DNA of 59,104 nucleotides from an uncultured Saprospiraceae bacterium. Lineage in GTDB: Bacteria > Bacteroidota > Bacteroidia > Chitinophagales > Saprospiraceae. A program made the position numbers and the translations under genes. The notes beneath the pieces are model-generated. The model made no database searches, was not told the origin of the DNA, and was given only the letters and a program-made list of their open reading frames with translations. Below, piece by piece: positions 17,535 to 24,257 of this stretch. Within the stretch, counting starts at the first letter, position 1, and every line of letters begins with the position of its first letter. Location: NCBI GenBank assembly GCA_938015925.1, contig CALLVY010000162.1:1-59104 (forward strand), given 5' to 3'.

Positions 17535-17957
17535 ATGAAAAAATTCACATCCATTCTCCTTGTCGATGATGACGAGGCAACTAACTATCTCCACGAATTG
17601 TATATCAAAGAATGGGGATTTGCAGAAAATATTTATACGGCCCTCAATGGCCAGGAAGCCTTGGAATTTTTAAGAAACAGTGAGGCTTTCAAAAACAACC
17701 GTCCTTCTCTGATTCTACTCGACGTCAATATGCCGATCATGAATGGTTTCGAATTTATGGAAGCCTATGAAGATATAGAAGATGAATTTAAAGCGACTCA
17801 AGTAGTCGTGATGCTCACCTCTTCCCTACATGCCAACGATCAGGCAAAAGCTGCGGGGCTTAATACCTTGGATAGTTTTATCAATAAACCTTTGTCTCGA
17901 GAACAAATGGAAAAAATCGTTGATCAGATTCAATTAGAAGAATCTAATGCTGAATAA
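17535..17957 (+). CDS. Single-domain response regulator (CheY/Rcp1-like)
   Basis: 140 residues comprising only a receiver domain. The acidic pocket is ILLVDDDEATN, the phospho-acceptor Asp is in LILLDVNMPIMNGFEF, the switch Thr is in VVMLTSS and the Lys is in FINKPLS. No output domain is present, so it must act through protein contacts. It is convergent with two tandem sensor kinases that begin 21 bases past its stop. Their shared position suggests one phosphorelay (inferred). TACATTTG at 17499-17506, a perfect -7 element, lies about 30 bases before the ATG. Confidence 0.9.
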   Translation: MKKFTSILLVDDDEATNYLHELYIKEWGFAENIYTALNGQEALEFLRNSEAFKNNRPSLILLDVNMPIMNGFEFMEAYEDIEDEFKATQVVVMLTSSLHANDQAKAAGLNTLDSFINKPLSREQMEKIVDQIQLEESNAE

Positions 17958-17978
17958 TTCTTTTGCTAAATAACCGCA

Positions 17979-19459
17979 TTAAATAAAAGCAGATTCTACT
18001 ATAGGATCTGCTTTTGTTTTTTCTTGGGGAAAGAAAACTTTTATCCTTGTTCCCTGATTGACTACACTTTCTATTTCTAGTTTACCTCCATTCTCATCAA
18101 CCAGTTTTTTGACGATATAAAGCCCTACACCGGAGCCTTCTACGTGATTGTGGAATCTATTGAACATCCCAAATATTTTTTCTTTGTGGATCTCCAAATC
18201 AACACCTACGCCATTATCTGCTACAGACAAACAAACATAAGCTCCTGAAAGATAACTTTTGATTTCAATCTTGGGAGGGCGATCCTTAGAATGGTACTTT
18301 ATGGCATTGGTCAAAAGGTTGGCTAATACACTTTTCATATTGATTCTGGAAAAATAAATCACCGGCATCTCTTCCAGGTCCTGAACGATTTTAATGTAAT
18401 CTTTCTCAATACTATTTATATTCTCTGCAAGGATTTCATCTATTATTTCTTTGAGAAGCAAGTCTTCTTTTTTATCTGTCAGATTTCGTTCTATTCTCGA
18501 TACTTTTAATAAATCAAAAATAGTTTGTTCCAATTTCTTAGTGGTCTTGCCCATAAAAAAGGCACTCCTTTTTAGGATTTCATCGTCTATGTTGATCACT
18601 TGTTTATTGATGATTGTCAGTAAGGATTGGATATTGATGACCGGAGCTTTTAAATCATGGGAAACACGGTATACAAAAGAATCCAGGGAATCGTTTTTAA
18701 GTTTTAATTCCCTGTTCAAATCTTCTAACTGTTCATTTTGTTTTTCTATTATTTCTGCTTGCTTGGCTCTACTGGCCAATTGATTTAAGCTTTTTCCTAA
18801 GATGGAAAATTCGGTATTTCCTTTAAAAGAAACTTTTTGGGAATAGTTTCCATTTTCGATGGCATTCGCAGCTTTTTTCAATTCCAAAACAGAATTATCT
18901 AGTCTGTTTTTCAGAAAGTAGCCTACATAGATCACGACACAAAAGAAAATCAAAGAAAGGACCAAGGAGCCTATTCTTGCCATTCCTATCCGATCAGCGA
19001 TCATGGTAACATCTGTCGTAAAATGTTCCTTTTCAATTGTCCTTAAATGCTTCAGATAATTAGATTGTTTAGTTCCAATCGATTGTAGTTTCGCGATCTT
19101 CTCTCCTTCTTTAAAATCACTCTTCGATTGTAACAGCAGTAAATATTCATTTTCTATTGCTACTATTTGCTCCAGCTTCAAATGTTCTTTGGGAAGATCC
19201 ATTTGCTCTACCAATCCACTAAATTTTTCTATTTCTGCTTTTAGTCCAAGTTTTTTTTTTGGTCAAAAACTCCTTCGCTCACGTTTTGAATAGACTTTTG
19301 CAAATCATTCATCAAGTGCAAATTATGATTGACTGTTTTGATCGAAGAATGCATTCGCCCCATATCTTTTGTAGTGATAAACCAAGCAAAGATACTGATG
19401 ATCAAAATCATTGTAGCAATCACAAAAATAGAAATGGAAATCTGTTTACTAATCTGCAT
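17979..19459 (-). CDS. Membrane sensor histidine kinase interrupted by a frameshift at an A10 tract
   Basis: Two reading frames together form one kinase of about 490 residues. The first, from ATG 19459, gives a membrane helix (ISISIFVIATMILIISIFAWFI) and the start of a sensor region, and stops at 19241. The second frame resumes at the A10 run (T10 on plus, 19251-19260) and continues KLGLKAEIEKFSGLVEQ. It carries a second helix (IGSLVLSLIFFCVVIYVGYFL), HAMP and HisKA with YRVSHDLKAPVINIQSLL. The ATPase follows: N box LLTNAIKYHSKD, G1 VADNGVGVD, G2 GSGVGLYIVKKL. One extra A would restore a single frame. The neighbouring paralogue is intact and of equal length. Transcriptional slippage, mutation or a sequencing error are all possible. 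It starts 19 bases after the paralogue's stop, so the two are probably one operon. Confidence 0.8.
17985..18026 (+). terminator. Intrinsic terminator of the response regulator, overlapping the kinase 3' end
   Basis: AAAAGCAGAT/ATCTGCTTTT (17985-17994 with 18006-18015) with an 11-base loop is followed by GUUUUUU. It is read from the plus strand and lies within the last codons of the convergent kinase. On the minus strand the U-tract is weak (UUUUAUUUAA). Confidence 0.7.
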
Positions 19460-19478
19460 GGCAACTCTTTTTATTGAC

Positions 19479-21008
19479 CTAAACCAGTTCTTCCTTCTCC
19501 TTTTTCATCCTCCTTTCATCTCCCTTTCCTTCTATTAAAAAATATAATTTGATAGTTGTTCCTTTATCCACTTCACTTAGAATTTCTACTTTCCCTTCAT
19601 TCTCGTCCATTAATTTCTTAACGATATACAATCCTACTCCAGAACCTTCTACATGATTGTGAAAACGATTAAACATCCCAAACATTTTCTTTTCCTGTCT
19701 TTTCAAATCGATCCCCAAACCATTGTCGGTAATAGAAAAACAAACGTAATCATCTGCAACTTCCGTTTTAAGTGCAACCTTTGAGGGTCTATCCGGGGAA
19801 TGGTATTTTATGGCATTGTCAATCGTATTGTTCAAGATGCTTTTTAAGTTCGTTTTAGAAAAATAGATCTGCGAAGCTTCTTCAAAGTCCTGAGTAATCG
19901 TCACTCCAGCTTCCTCGATAAGCATCATTTTATCCTCTACAATTTGGTCGACCATTGTTTTGATCGAATTTTGTTCTTTGCTGCTTTTCAAATGCTCCTC
20001 AATCCTCGATACTTCCAATAAATCATAAATGGTTTGTTTAAGTTTCTCTGTCGTTTTTCCCAAAAAGAAAGTAGTTCTCGTTAAAACAGGATTGTCCATT
20101 TTGTAAACCTGACTATTGACCACCTTCAATAAAGATTGGATATTAATAACCGGAGCTTTTAGGTCGTGAGAAACGCGATAGACAAAACTATCCAACGAAT
20201 CATTTTTATTTTTCAAGCGCTTGTTGAGATCTTCCAGTTGCTTATTTTGATTGGTAATGATTTCGGATTTTTGTAAATCCTCTGCCAGGTCATTGAAAGA
20301 CACACTCAACTTACCAAATTCATCTGAACGCGTCAAGCCTTCCTGTTGAGAGTAATCGCCTTCTGATAAACGCTGCGCTCTCAGCTTCAAATAATCTATC
20401 GCCTTCGACAAATCTCTCGCGATAATCTGCCCAAAAACAATAGCACATAAGAATATCGAAAAACTTGCCCAGGATATCCAACTCAAAATTTGCTGATAGA
20501 CTCCTTCAATCTCTCTTCCTTCTATCTGACACTCTTCCATCCCGGCAGCTTTTGCTGCTAGCAGCGTTCCGGTCATCTCTAGTCGTATTTGATCGACCTC
20601 TTTCCAAACCTCTGCTTTGTTATCGGATGATCCTGTAGAATGACTTTGTAAAGATTTTTCTACACCAAGCAACTTAGAAAAGGAACTCATCAATTCATTG
20701 GCCACTTTCTCCTGGCGTTCACCTAATGCTCCAAAGCGAGTAATCTGCTCATGTAATTCTTCTATTTTTCCTTTTGGATCACCAATTCCGTTTCCAGTAG
20801 CATTGATCCCCTTCATCATTTCAATTTGTGAAGAAGTTAAAACTGCTTGTATCTCCTCCAAAACCAGAGACTCCTGATGCCATTCTTCCACTTTCTCGGT
20901 ATAACTATACTCCACACTTTGAGACCTTTGATAACTCATCATTCCTGCCACTGCTGCCAGAATTGCTACAAACGTACTACTGGCAATGATTTTGTGTTTA
21001 AGTGTCAT
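19479..21008 (-). CDS. Membrane sensor histidine kinase (tandem paralogue)
   Basis: 509 residues. An N-terminal helix (KIIASSTFVAILAAVAGMMSY) and a helical extracytoplasmic sensor of about 150 residues precede a second helix (ILSWISWASFSIFLCAIVFGQII). HAMP follows (DLSKAIDYLKLRAQRLSEGDYSQ), then a short coiled coil (NQNKQLEDLNKRLKNK). HisKA has FVYRVSHDLKAPVINIQSLL. The ATPase has N box LNNTIDNAIKYHS, G1 ITDNGLGID and G2 GSGVGLYIVKKLMDEN. The kinase half is nearly the same as in the downstream gene, while the sensors differ, which suggests duplication with sensor divergence. It starts at ATG 21008. The palindromic element at 21079-21282 sits immediately upstream and might affect its transcription. 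Confidence 0.92.
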   Translation of the reverse strand: MTLKHKIIASSTFVAILAAVAGMMSYQRSQSVEYSYTEKVEEWHQESLVLEEIQAVLTSSQIEMMKGINATGNGIGDPKGKIEELHEQITRFGALGERQEKVANELMSSFSKLLGVEKSLQSHSTGSSDNKAEVWKEVDQIRLEMTGTLLAAKAAGMEECQIEGREIEGVYQQILSWISWASFSIFLCAIVFGQIIARDLSKAIDYLKLRAQRLSEGDYSQQEGLTRSDEFGKLSVSFNDLAEDLQKSEIITNQNKQLEDLNKRLKNKNDSLDSFVYRVSHDLKAPVINIQSLLKVVNSQVYKMDNPVLTRTTFFLGKTTEKLKQTIYDLLEVSRIEEHLKSSKEQNSIKTMVDQIVEDKMMLIEEAGVTITQDFEEASQIYFSKTNLKSILNNTIDNAIKYHSPDRPSKVALKTEVADDYVCFSITDNGLGIDLKRQEKKMFGMFNRFHNHVEGSGVGLYIVKKLMDENEGKVEILSEVDKGTTIKLYFLIEGKGDERRMKKEKEELV

Positions 21009-21055
21009 TAATTTAAAATTTTACCATATAAACGGTAGGAAAAGCCAAATCCATT

Positions 21056-21308
21056 AACCCAGATAAGCATTTTATTAGTAGGTTAAACGCACCAAAATAT
21101 TACCCCACAACTTTAGTTGTGGGTGGATAAATGAAAATAGCATTAAACGGTTTCAACCGTTTTTCTCAAGTCCATTAATATTTAAAACCGTTAAAACGGT
21201 TGTTCCAAAGACTAATTCTATCTCCCACAACTAAAGTTGTGGGTTGAAATTAGGTATCAGCCGTTTTGATGCGTTTAACCTATTTTATTAGCGGGAAAAC
21301 CCAGATAA
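21056..21308. repeat. Outer 11-bp direct repeats around the palindromic element
   Basis: AACCCAGATAA occurs at 21056-21066 and again at 21298-21308, outside the 9-bp repeats. The nested pairs of direct repeats suggest either an older insertion event at the same site or an origin of the whole block by duplication. Confidence 0.45.
21079..21282. mobile_element. 204-bp palindrome-rich MITE/REP-like element
   Basis: Terminal inverted repeats of 19 bp with one mismatch: TAGGTTAAACGCACCAAAA (21079-21097) and TTTTGATGCGTTTAACCTA (21264-21282). They are flanked by identical 9-bp direct repeats TTTTATTAG (21070-21078 and 21283-21291), as a target-site duplication would be. Inside lie four palindromes. 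P1 is CCCACAACT-TT-AGTTGTGGG (21104-21123). P2 is AAACGGTT-TC-AACCGTTT (21145-21162). P3 is AACCGTT-AA-AACGGTT (21186-21201). P4 is CCCACAACT-AA-AGTTGTGGG (21224-21243), the exact reverse complement of P1. There is no open reading frame, so any movement would need a transposase in trans. Confidence 0.7.
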
Positions 21309-21498
21309 TACAATGCTATTGTAGACTAAAGACGCAAGGCTCTCCATTTTTCGGAAATTTTTATATTCAGAAAACTTATATGTTTTACTCTTTTTTATAG
21401 CTTATGTTGCAAATGGACGGGAGGCATCCTCTCAAAACTGCTGGCTTAAGACGGAGGGTTAAATCGACAAAGAAAGGCAGGAGAATAGTTTACTTACA

Positions 21499-21535
21499 AA
21501 GATAGCCAGACCCGATTAAAGGATCTAGCTATCTT
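21499..21535. terminator. Stem-loop downstream of the S9 peptidase gene
   Basis: AAGATAGC and AGA (21499-21510) pair with TCT and GCTATCTT (21524-21535) with one mismatch. It lies about 65 bases past the stop of the minus-strand peptidase gene. The U-tract on either strand is weak, so termination is only a suggestion. Confidence 0.4.
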
Positions 21536-21600
21536 GATTTATCATTTTGTCACTTTATCGTGACGTAAAATGCATTTTAACCTCTGAGATATAGGTTTGT

Positions 21601-24060
21601 CTATTTCTTATTCTTCACATAAGTATCTAACCATTCCGACATTTCCCAGAGCATGTGCATGACCGATTCGCGAGCGCGGTAACTATGGCTTTCGTGAGGC
21701 AACATTACTAAGCGCACTATAGCACCATGGCCTTTCATGGCACCATACATCCGTTCGCTTTGCATAGGGTAAGTTCCAGAATTATTATCTGCTTCTCCAT
21801 GAATCATTAAGAGCGGAGCTTCAATTTTATTGGCCGAAACAAATGGAGACATCTTGAAATAAGTTTCTGGAGCTTCCCAAAAAGTACGCTCTTCTGACTG
21901 AAATCCAAAAGGGGTTAGGGTTCGATTATAAGCTCCGCTACGTGCAATACCTGCGGCAAACAAATCGGTATGCGCCAATAAATTGGCCGTCATAAAAGCG
22001 CCATAAGAATGCCCACCAACTGCCAAGCGATCGACATCCGCAACACCCATTTTTTCCAGTTTCTTCACCGCAGCTTCGGCTCCATCGCTCAATTGTTCGA
22101 TAAAGGTTTCATTCGGTTCTTCTTCTCCTTCTCCTATGATTGGCATGCCAAAATCATCAAAAACAGCGTAACCTCTAGTCACCCAAAAAATCGGAGACCA
22201 CCAACCAATCCGAATAAATTCGTAAGGAGAATCTTTGACCTGACCAGCAGCATCTGCACTTTTAAACTCTCGAGGATATGCCCACATCAAAACAGGTAAG
22301 CGGCCATCTTTCTTCGGATTATACCCCTTTGGGAGGTAGAGGTTTCCAGTCAGCTCTACCCCATCAGCTCTTTGATATTTGATCAATTCTTTCTTTACAC
22401 CATCCAAGGCCAGATAAGGATTTTCAATCTGCGTAATGCGATTGATTTTTTTAGTTTTTAGGTTTCGTAAAAAATAATTCGCAGGTTCTTCATTCGACTC
22501 TCGTCGAGTCAGAAGTATCCCCTCTTCTATATTTAAAATAGCAATCAATCTTTCGTAATAAGGTGCTTCAGAACGCCAAAGTCTTTTACTTTTTTTGCTG
22601 GTCACATCAAACTCATCCAAGAAAGGTCGGTTGCCTTCTTCAGAGGCTCCCTGCCCTTTAAGGTATAAGGTTTTGCCTTCGTCTTTTGTAAGCAATACTC
22701 TTCGACCATATTCATTGGGAGCTGTTTCAAAATCCCCTGGGTCATTGTATCGATCTTCCCAAGAACGATCTGACAATAAAGTTTTGCCCGCTTTGATATT
22801 ATCCGGTTGCCAGGTACTTGTCATTATTTGTCGATTGGCCAACCACCATTCATAAGCGATCGCCAAATCTCCTGTTCCCCAAGTTACTCCTCCATAGCGC
22901 AATTTAAATTCGATTCCGGCAGTTGGTTTTTCAGCATCAAAAGGCGCTTCCAGATAGTACATTCGGTCTCGGATAGCCACTTCCTTTTTAGGATCTCCAC
23001 CATCTTGAGCTTCGACCCAAACCAAAGTTGCCGGAGCATCCGACCGCCAGGCAAAAGATCGCGCATGATCACTTACCGCTCCGAATCCTTTTGGGATATT
23101 TTCGGCTACCGGAGCATTCGCAATTTCGCGAATATGATCCCCCGTACGACTAAAAACATTTAAAGAAAAAGCAAAACGACCTTGGGGCACTACATAAGAA
23201 AAAGGCTTTTCCTTATTCATCACAAACAGGTATTGGCCATCAGGAGAGGTACTGAAATTACTAACAATTCCTGGTTCTCCGAATTTCAAATATTCATTCG
23301 TCAATAAATTTACGAGATACAATTGGGAGGTGGTATAATATTCAAACAAGGCTTCATCATGTGCATTTTTCAATAAATCCTGATACGTTCTAACGGGTGC
23401 AGAAGCACCAAGATTTTCCTGAATAACTGGCCCAACCGGAACCAATGCCTCTTTTGGAGCAGGTCCTCTTTTATCTGCGATGGTTTTGAAAAGGATATTT
23501 TCACTATCTGAAAACCATCGATAAGGCAAACCGGGCATCGCATCATTGATCAGAGGTAAACTCAAGCGGCGCGCCTTGCGCGAATCCACTTCTGCTACCC
23601 AAAGTTCCAAACCATCTTCTTTGGTCAAGGTAAATGCAATTTTGCTTCCATCGGGGGCCCAGCTTACATTTTCGATTTGTAAATTTTCGGGAAGACCGGA
23701 AAAAGCCAACTCTTCGCCAGCACCTATTGTTTTAAGTTTTAGGTTGTTGTAATAAAAAGCGCGGCTCGAACTATTGGTTTTTGGATTGATCCGCAGTCCT
23801 GCGAGGCGAAGCTCTTCCTGTGCGACTTCTTCCAAAGAAGGTAGACTTGGTCGAAACAACATCAAAATCCTATTTCCGTCGGGACTAATACTTGCCACTG
23901 GGGTTGGTGCAGCATCGATCAAGTTGACAACCGTTGGATCTGGCAACTGATAGGATAAATTATCTTGGGCTTTTGTGGTTTGTAACATAAGGAAAAAAGA
24001 ACTGATACAAAGAATGGTTTGCACGTAGGTGCAAACTTTTAGATTTTTTATTGGACTCAT
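21601..24060 (-). CDS. S9 family serine peptidase (prolyl oligopeptidase / glutamyl endopeptidase-like), secreted
   Basis: 819 residues from ATG 24060; a TTG three codons upstream is less likely. A signal peptide (VQTILCISSFFLMLQTTKAQ) is followed by a beta-propeller-like region with YWTD/WD-type repeats, for example VASISPDGNRILMLF, VSWAPDGSKIAFTL and FSTSPDGQYLFVMN. The C-terminal peptidase has the nucleophile in VGGHSYGAFMTANLL, the acid in MIHGEADNNSGTYPMQSERM and the His in MLPHESHSYRARES. Size and layout agree with dipeptidyl or glutamyl peptidases of S9, including chloroplast glutamyl peptidase homologues. It probably digests peptides in the periplasm. It follows the DUF5916 gene on the same strand after about 200 bases. 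Confidence 0.9.
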   Translation of the reverse strand: MSPIKNLKVCTYVQTILCISSFFLMLQTTKAQDNLSYQLPDPTVVNLIDAAPTPVASISPDGNRILMLFRPSLPSLEEVAQEELRLAGLRINPKTNSSSRAFYYNNLKLKTIGAGEELAFSGLPENLQIENVSWAPDGSKIAFTLTKEDGLELWVAEVDSRKARRLSLPLINDAMPGLPYRWFSDSENILFKTIADKRGPAPKEALVPVGPVIQENLGASAPVRTYQDLLKNAHDEALFEYYTTSQLYLVNLLTNEYLKFGEPGIVSNFSTSPDGQYLFVMNKEKPFSYVVPQGRFAFSLNVFSRTGDHIREIANAPVAENIPKGFGAVSDHARSFAWRSDAPATLVWVEAQDGGDPKKEVAIRDRMYYLEAPFDAEKPTAGIEFKLRYGGVTWGTGDLAIAYEWWLANRQIMTSTWQPDNIKAGKTLLSDRSWEDRYNDPGDFETAPNEYGRRVLLTKDEGKTLYLKGQGASEEGNRPFLDEFDVTSKKSKRLWRSEAPYYERLIAILNIEEGILLTRRESNEEPANYFLRNLKTKKINRITQIENPYLALDGVKKELIKYQRADGVELTGNLYLPKGYNPKKDGRLPVLMWAYPREFKSADAAGQVKDSPYEFIRIGWWSPIFWVTRGYAVFDDFGMPIIGEGEEEPNETFIEQLSDGAEAAVKKLEKMGVADVDRLAVGGHSYGAFMTANLLAHTDLFAAGIARSGAYNRTLTPFGFQSEERTFWEAPETYFKMSPFVSANKIEAPLLMIHGEADNNSGTYPMQSERMYGAMKGHGAIVRLVMLPHESHSYRARESVMHMLWEMSEWLDTYVKNKK

Positions 24061-24257
24061 AACTAACAAATTTCAACTCTTGGAAAAGGAGTTGTTAACG
24101 AATATAGACAGTGCTACCACCAATCCAAAGTAATTTTGCTTATGTTTGGAAAAATTAACCTACTTTTCAATAAAGTGAAGTTGTTTAAAATGAATTGATG
24201 CTTTATTTAGCAAATGAGTTGTTTATAAAAGAAAGCAATTCTGTGAATTACTTCAAG

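Follow-up and report, generated by a model that had tools for sequence, protein, structure and literature searches.

A probable ISAs1-type MITE with an inner pair of inverted palindromes in a Saprospiraceae draft genome

Which kind of transposase, if any, accounts for a palindromic stretch of 204 bp that lies between a histidine kinase gene and a peptidase gene of an uncultured Saprospiraceae bacterium? The window, i.e., the whole stretch of DNA that was analysed, is 59,104 nucleotides long, and an initial annotation of it had described a non-autonomous element whose palindromes recall REP units moved by Y1 transposases and whose flanking direct repeats point to a DDE transposase instead. The element is present in the sequence as described. 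Its terminal inverted repeats are 19 bp long, complementary at 18 of 19 positions, with TAGGTTAAACGCAYCAAAA-type ends; the 9-bp direct repeats stand flush against them on both sides; and all 4 inner palindromes are found, P1 and P4 forming an inverted doublet 100 bp apart. The outer 11-bp repeats that had been counted with the element are real as well, but lie beyond the 9-bp duplication, and therefore belong to the target region and not to the element. The features of the locus are as follows.

19479–21008, minus strand: neighbouring gene for a HAMP/HATPase sensor histidine kinase, its start codon 70 bp from the element
21056–21066, plus strand: left copy of the outer 11-bp repeat AACCCAGATAA, outside the target duplication
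21070–21078, no strand: left copy of the 9-bp target duplication TTTTATTAG
21079–21282, no strand: putative ISAs1-type MITE of 204 bp, overlapped by no ORF of at least 80 aa in the ORF list of the window
21079–21097, plus strand: left terminal inverted repeat TAGGTTAAACGCACCAAAA, an ISAs1-type end
21104–21123, plus strand: P1, perfect palindrome CCCACAACTTTAGTTGTGGG; 99 of 100 cells equal the window copy
21145–21162, plus strand: P2, palindrome AAACGGTTTCAACCGTTT
21186–21201, plus strand: P3, palindrome AACCGTTAAAACGGTT, read from the sequence
21224–21243, plus strand: P4, exact reverse complement of P1; 79 of 80 cells identical
21264–21282, minus strand: right terminal inverted repeat, TAGGTTAAACGCATCAAAA as read on that strand
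21283–21291, no strand: right copy of the 9-bp target duplication TTTTATTAG
21298–21308, plus strand: right copy of the outer 11-bp repeat AACCCAGATAA, outside the target duplication
21601–24069, minus strand: neighbouring gene for an S9 (prolyl oligopeptidase) family peptidase

When up to 3 mismatches are allowed, the P1/P4 pattern has 2 matches in the window compared to a mean of 0.00 in 100 shuffles. The P2 pattern also has 2, against 0.42 in shuffles, but 7 shuffles reach this count, and P2 and P3 are therefore unremarkable by themselves. The inner 166 bp contain 3 perfect hairpins with arms of at least 8 bp (P1, P2, and P4), versus 0.045 per shuffle. The predicted fold of the whole element has z-scores of -9.1 (RNA of the plus strand), -10.8 (RNA of the minus strand), and -8.5 (DNA), and none of 200 shuffles equals its strength in any of the 3 cases. 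The Bacteroidota-type promoter motif TAnnTTTG occurs 3 times in 20950–21620 and is absent from the element.

Further copies had been proposed as the check on mobility, and the same draft genome (7.5 Mb in 905 contigs, 77.78% complete) contains them. Long matches, 77–97% identical, lie on 7 contigs: C162 (the window), C647, C385, C52, C280, C302, and C381. Since the contig ends of C647 and C280 overlap with 141 of 141 bases identical, they are probably one copy, so that the 7 contigs probably hold 6 copies. The C385 copy is truncated to its left half, the C302 copy has a degraded right end, and the C381 copy is without P2 and half of P3. According to the ORF calls, the copies sit between genes, with the C381 copy touching a stop codon; 2 short ORFs overlapping the C302 and C385 copies are taken as spurious. 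The 9-bp duplications differ in sequence from site to site and match at 9/9 positions for C162 and C381 (the latter AATTTGTTG), 8/9 for C52, and 7/9 for C647 and C280, assuming that both contig ends represent one copy. All 4 sites that can be read at both ends thus have a 9-bp duplication of at least 7/9 (3 of 3 if C647 and C280 are separate copies). The right ends of the degraded C302 copy and the truncated C385 copy are unreadable, and these 2 therefore speak neither for nor against a duplication. As a chance scale, flanks swapped among 44 other elements, among the matches listed, reach 7/9 in 0.16% of 1892 comparisons. The dispersed copies with their differing duplications bear out the mobility claimed initially and, as judged from these sequence comparisons, 21079–21282 is mobile DNA.

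Searches of the same genome at lower stringency gave mostly short matches. At E 10, there are 43 matches to the element, mostly palindromes and end repeats matching each other or stretches of approximately 15–30 bases. The strongest short match outside the copies, 25 bases on C674 (E 5e-4), was rejected as a stretch without the palindrome pair of the element. The end pattern, with up to 3 mismatches, is found in 17 places, 8 of them within copies, compared to 6 for the reversed control, and 15 loci with weak matches yielded 2 weak repeat pairs, both without duplication.

Of 60 genomes searched at E 0.001, only its own matched the element; it was unmatched in plasmids and phages by distant blastn, and viral contigs gave 0 matches to the P1/P4 and end-repeat patterns. 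An empty site had been named as a second check on mobility. Among the relatives searched, G001 is the only congener, and both neighbouring genes are conserved there (DNA identity of 73% over 588 bases for the peptidase gene; 23 of 58 residues identical for a histidine-kinase-like start). In G001, the 2 genes are separated by 76 bp and the element is absent, whereas 592 bp separate them in the window. The G001 gap is too diverged to be aligned at the junction and therefore represents a syntenic locus without the element rather than a base-exact empty site. When 21009–21600 of the window is set against locus L069, the element and its duplication account for 213 bp of the difference in gap length, implying that about 300 bp more were gained or lost. 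Queries for the C302 and C381 copy sites have no match at all in G001 and are therefore uninformative on empty sites.

Two further observations concern the surroundings of the element. Between the element and the peptidase gene, an imperfect stem (AAGATAGCCAGACCC .. GGATCTAGCTATCTT, 21499–21535) was read by eye; it is perhaps a terminator, and is absent from the sites of the terminator scan. On the other side (17535–21008), a response-regulator-like gene on the plus strand adjoins 2 histidine kinase genes on the minus strand (17979–19214 and 19479–21008), which have near-identical stretches in common and are perhaps a tandem duplication.

The strong predicted fold, together with 2 weak terminator-like sites on the minus strand inside the element (2 in the region compared to 0.8 in shuffles), would suit a fixed, non-mobile cis-regulatory RNA that serves the histidine kinase or the peptidase gene as attenuator or terminator. 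However, the copies on other contigs lie beside other genes and have their own target duplications, and the syntenic gap of the congener is without the element. Moreover, no family reached its gathering score when the element was scanned against Rfam, where 2 sub-threshold miRNA matches were dismissed as chance. We consider a fixed RNA of this kind extremely improbable; a secondary regulatory effect of the mobile element may exist.

To our knowledge, target duplications of 9 bp and end repeats of 19 bp are not features of Y1 transposition. The initial annotation had likened the palindromes to REP units moved by Y1 transposases. In a REP or REPIN-type element, P1 and P4 would be inverted REPs moved by a Y1 REP-associated tyrosine transposase (RAYT). 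P1 and P4 are indeed an inverted pair of perfect palindromes, as are the pairs of REPINs in the passages cited (PMC3116915), and the genome has one RAYT match (NF047646, 92.3 bits with a cut-off of 80), which is the only RAYT and the only Y1 gene found:

G000:C860, locus L246, 1219–1938, minus strand: RAYT (NF047646)

However, the draft genome has 12 P1/P4 sites when up to 2 mismatches are allowed, and every one of them falls within a copy of the element; the exact P1/P4 pattern is found only in this genome among the 298 of the order; and the RAYT is flanked by TGAATGC..GCATTCA and TCAATGC..GCATTGA hairpins and not by P1/P4. According to the part of the literature cited here, REP palindromes bear a GTAG or CGTC tag at their foot (PMC3733652); direct reading of the sequence around P1 and P4 reveals neither tag. 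With all P1/P4 sites in copies and other palindromes at the Y1 gene, the Y1 reading is therefore unsupported, and we regard a REP or REPIN origin of the whole element as highly unlikely. The hairpins on both sides of the RAYT, of which TGAATGC..GCATTCA is set in CGGGT..ACCGAG, are a REP-like family of their own and have no exact counterpart in the window.

Ends that begin with CAGGG and are accompanied by 9–10-bp duplications are what we take to be ISAs1-like, and this prompted us to test ISAs1 as the class of the helper. Using a fixed yardstick in same-family genomes, repeats of the MITE type matching at 14/19 positions or better are present on both sides of 13 of 18 ISAs1 loci, versus 0 of 20 Y1 loci. 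At 5 of the 18 ISAs1 loci, one side or both miss 14/19, and 2 of the 20 Y1 loci have a single end that attains it, so that one end alone is near noise. The 18 loci are the near full-length matches among 30 loci, with the partial L234, L238, and L239 excluded. The ends nearest to those of the window are found at L226 (TAGGTTAAACGCACGAA-) and L231 (CAGGTTAAACGCATCAAAT), where the ISAs1 transposases between them have open frames 366 and 390 aa long and score 344.5 and 294.6 bits, respectively, to NF033564 (cut-off 70). The full end pairs read TAGGTTAAACGCACGAAC/T at L226 and CAGGTTAAACGCATCAATT/CAGGTTAAACGCATCAAAT at L231. It had been suggested that insertion sequences with TAGGTTAAACGCA ends would name the helper, and such ends do flank the ISAs1 transposase of L226, in a same-family genome.

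Duplications at the ISAs1 loci come from an inverted-repeat search around 21 ISAs1 genes that was blind to the MITE ends and had a score that rewarded duplication, and they are thus best-of-many. L231 is without a duplication (best 5/9) and L226 has only a 7/8 match, one base off register, while perfect 9-bp duplications are present at L189 (TAGGTTGATTGCATCAAAA) and L227 (TAGGGCTATCGCATCAAAA). Perfect duplications of 8–10 bp are found at L188, L189, L222, L223, L227, L230, and L239, some of them one base off the CAGGG register; at L224 and L238, the search returned no pair. Among published ISAs1 elements, ISArsp11 bears CAGGGCTGATGCAAAGTCG ends together with a direct repeat of 10 bp in the passage cited (PMC6305408).

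At E 0.001, 43 of 328 same-family genomes match the ISAs1 transposase family (NF033564), and 34 of the 328 exceed the cut-off; the draft genome that carries the element (77.78% complete) has 0 matches, and the sole congener has none. The helper was therefore lost, is missing from the draft, or was never resident.

Very probably, then, the element belongs to the ISAs1 class as a short non-coding MITE on which an ISAs1-family DDE transposase would act in trans. Such an enzyme would recognise the 19-bp terminal inverted repeats of the element (consensus YAGGKYAAACGCAYCAAAA), and insertion would leave the 9-bp target duplication. The helper of this genome may have been lost or may lie within the missing fifth of the draft, and the copies would be old and mostly inactive. 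The copy number, the 9-bp duplications at different sites, and the ISAs1-type inverted repeats all agree with the non-autonomous, DDE-moved element proposed at the outset; the conflict between Y1 and DDE is resolved in favour of DDE, and a helper class can be named. Together, the copies make up a new family of ISAs1-type MITEs, for the most part decayed, in a genome of Saprospiraceae type; the family is ordinary in kind but has noteworthy inner palindromes. A literature search on Saprospiraceae MITEs matched a bioreactor community study, which is no proof that such elements are unpublished.

The same type of end is spread over many genomes. A scan of 257 billion bases with the pattern AGGKYAAACGCAYCAAAA gave at least 118 stretches, which do not amount to a census; among the matches listed are Bacteroidota, Chloroflexota, Cyanobacteria, Synergistaceae, and others. 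By simple arithmetic, approximately 60 matches are expected by chance and, in the 298 genomes of the order, the end pattern with up to 1 mismatch is found at 11 places in 10 other genomes, barely above the reversed control (6 in 6). Only pairs with a duplication are therefore informative. The matches listed include 44 short repeat pairs of 60–600 bp. Duplications are 9 bp long at 15 of these pairs and 10 bp long at 11 (counted at 7/9 or 8/10 and better, respectively), compared to 1, 1, 1, and 0 pairs with duplications of 7, 8, 11, and 12 bp. A set of 29 elements with duplication, which adds the same-family loci L064–L069, requires a duplication of at least 77% at 8–11 bp; related copies are included in both the 44 and the 29. 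Short elements that share one type of end repeat, with duplications of 9–10 bp, are thus present in Saprospiraceae and other Bacteroidota, in Anaerolineae, and in a Legionella MAG, among others.

Several stretches with such ends have features of their own. In the Saprospiraceae MAG CALFBH01, the same 43 bases, consisting of the end repeat minus its first base plus TTTTAGTCGTGTTCTATCAAAGCAT, occur at L085, L088, L090, L102, L135, and L153 and belong to a different element family with these ends. At L110 of a Bacteroidales MAG, 2 tandem end repeats (4318 and 4344) are 26 bp apart, with several such ends nearby. At L066 (777–1402), ORFs consist of repeated IWDLGF/IYDLRF motifs in overlapping frames; the underlying DNA is a short tandem repeat that lies next to a MITE-type end.

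To return to the inner palindromes, the number of variable columns across the copies is 2 of 40 for P1 and P4, 9 of 36 for P2 and P3, 16 of 38 for the end repeats, and 58 of 90 for the spacers (Fisher P = 4e-11 for P1 and P4 versus spacers, and 1e-4 versus end repeats). Because columns and not cells were counted, shared ancestry does not inflate the numerator, though linked columns are not fully independent; the overlapping contig ends C647 and C280 entered as one row, and P3 was taken as 21185–21202. Conserved palindromes beside decayed ends fit either constraint or a conversion process that keeps the palindromes alike. We hypothesise that the inverted P1/P4 pair would be cargo under a separate constraint. 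The palindromes do not look inherited from an insertion sequence, since 11 of 13 ISAs1 elements have no perfect hairpin (arms of at least 8 bp) between the end repeat and the coding match. The most likely role, which we infer only weakly, would be that of a hairpin, in RNA or DNA, by which neighbouring transcription is shielded or a host protein is bound.

Alternatively, an ISAs1-type MITE could have P1 and P4 kept by mutation bias or repeated gene conversion between inverted copies, without any role, an explanation that is quite conceivable even if we lean towards doubting it. P1 and P4 are identical as reverse complements, so that conversion within or between copies could hold both constant. 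Furthermore, in a covariation analysis of the end-repeat pairing and the 4 local hairpins, 0 of 50 pairs changed on both sides and the score was no better than in shuffles, leaving the pairing without covariation support. However, P2/P3 and the end repeats, which are likewise inverted, are more variable than P1 and P4. Should the inner palindromes truly be under the stronger constraint, the part of the MITE that is kept would be its cargo and not its ends.

Palindromes within comparable elements provide a parallel. Among the matches listed, 6 of the 29 short elements that combine such ends with a duplication contain a perfect inner hairpin (arms of at least 8 bp), compared to 0.86 expected from shuffles, and 4 of the 6 come from a single Anaerolineae MAG. 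The inner palindromes of this MAG are GTAG-tagged inverted pairs (GTAGGGGCGGTTCGCGAACCGCCC .. GGGCGCATCACGATGCGCCCCTAC in L165). A near relative, GTAGGGGCGGCTCGCGAGCCGCCC .. GGGCGCGTCGCGACGCGCCCCTAC, is found free at L165 564–642, approximately 1.9 kb from the element, and the pair recurs inverted at L092 318–396, where it abuts a weak repeat pair without duplication. Between the enclosed and the free form, changes on one arm are matched by changes on the other. Element L132 of a Legionella MAG likewise has a hairpin pair inside, and a free GTAGGGGCG was not found in its 8 kb. At six Bacteroidota loci, GACCTC..GAGGTC palindromes are enclosed by such ends or lie just within them, and the stretches examined contain no free ones; for 3 of the 6, only one end was found, and their borders are therefore assumed. 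As far as the sequences compared go, palindromes within elements bearing these ends recur and, in one genome, are related to free REP-like pairs.

These parallels allow a more speculative scenario, which we regard as rather unlikely: ISAs1-type MITEs would carry captured REP-like doublets, which are spread by DDE ends and not by a RAYT and are then constrained more strongly than the ends. The doublet of the window would survive only inside the MITE, and the free and enclosed doublets of the Anaerolineae MAG would show capture midway. If the constraint on the palindromes is real, REP doublets and DDE MITEs, which are usually treated separately, become linked.

How does the element compare with known systems? 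ISNpu3 belongs to the ISAs1 family. Nezha, a cyanobacterial MITE, has been proposed to be moved by ISNpu3-like elements (PMC3049150); its likeness to the element of the window is one of general description, and an inverted palindrome pair is nowhere mentioned in the passages cited. BrickBuilt of Porphyromonas gingivalis is a MITE-like element from Bacteroidota and, in the part of its description cited, has repeat cargo inside its end repeats (PMC4596501), as has the element here. It differs in that the cargo is a 23-nt tandem repeat and its GAGACCTTTGCA-type ends match other insertion sequences. REPINs, according to the cited passages, share an inverted palindrome pair that is better conserved than the rest (PMC3116915). 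Unlike them, the element of the window has DDE-type end repeats and a target duplication, and its palindromes were neither found free nor matched by RAYT-linked ones. The ISAs1 insertion sequences themselves (ISArsp11; L189, L226, L227, and L231) have the same type of end repeat and 8–10-bp target duplications, but encode a transposase, whereas the element described here encodes nothing.
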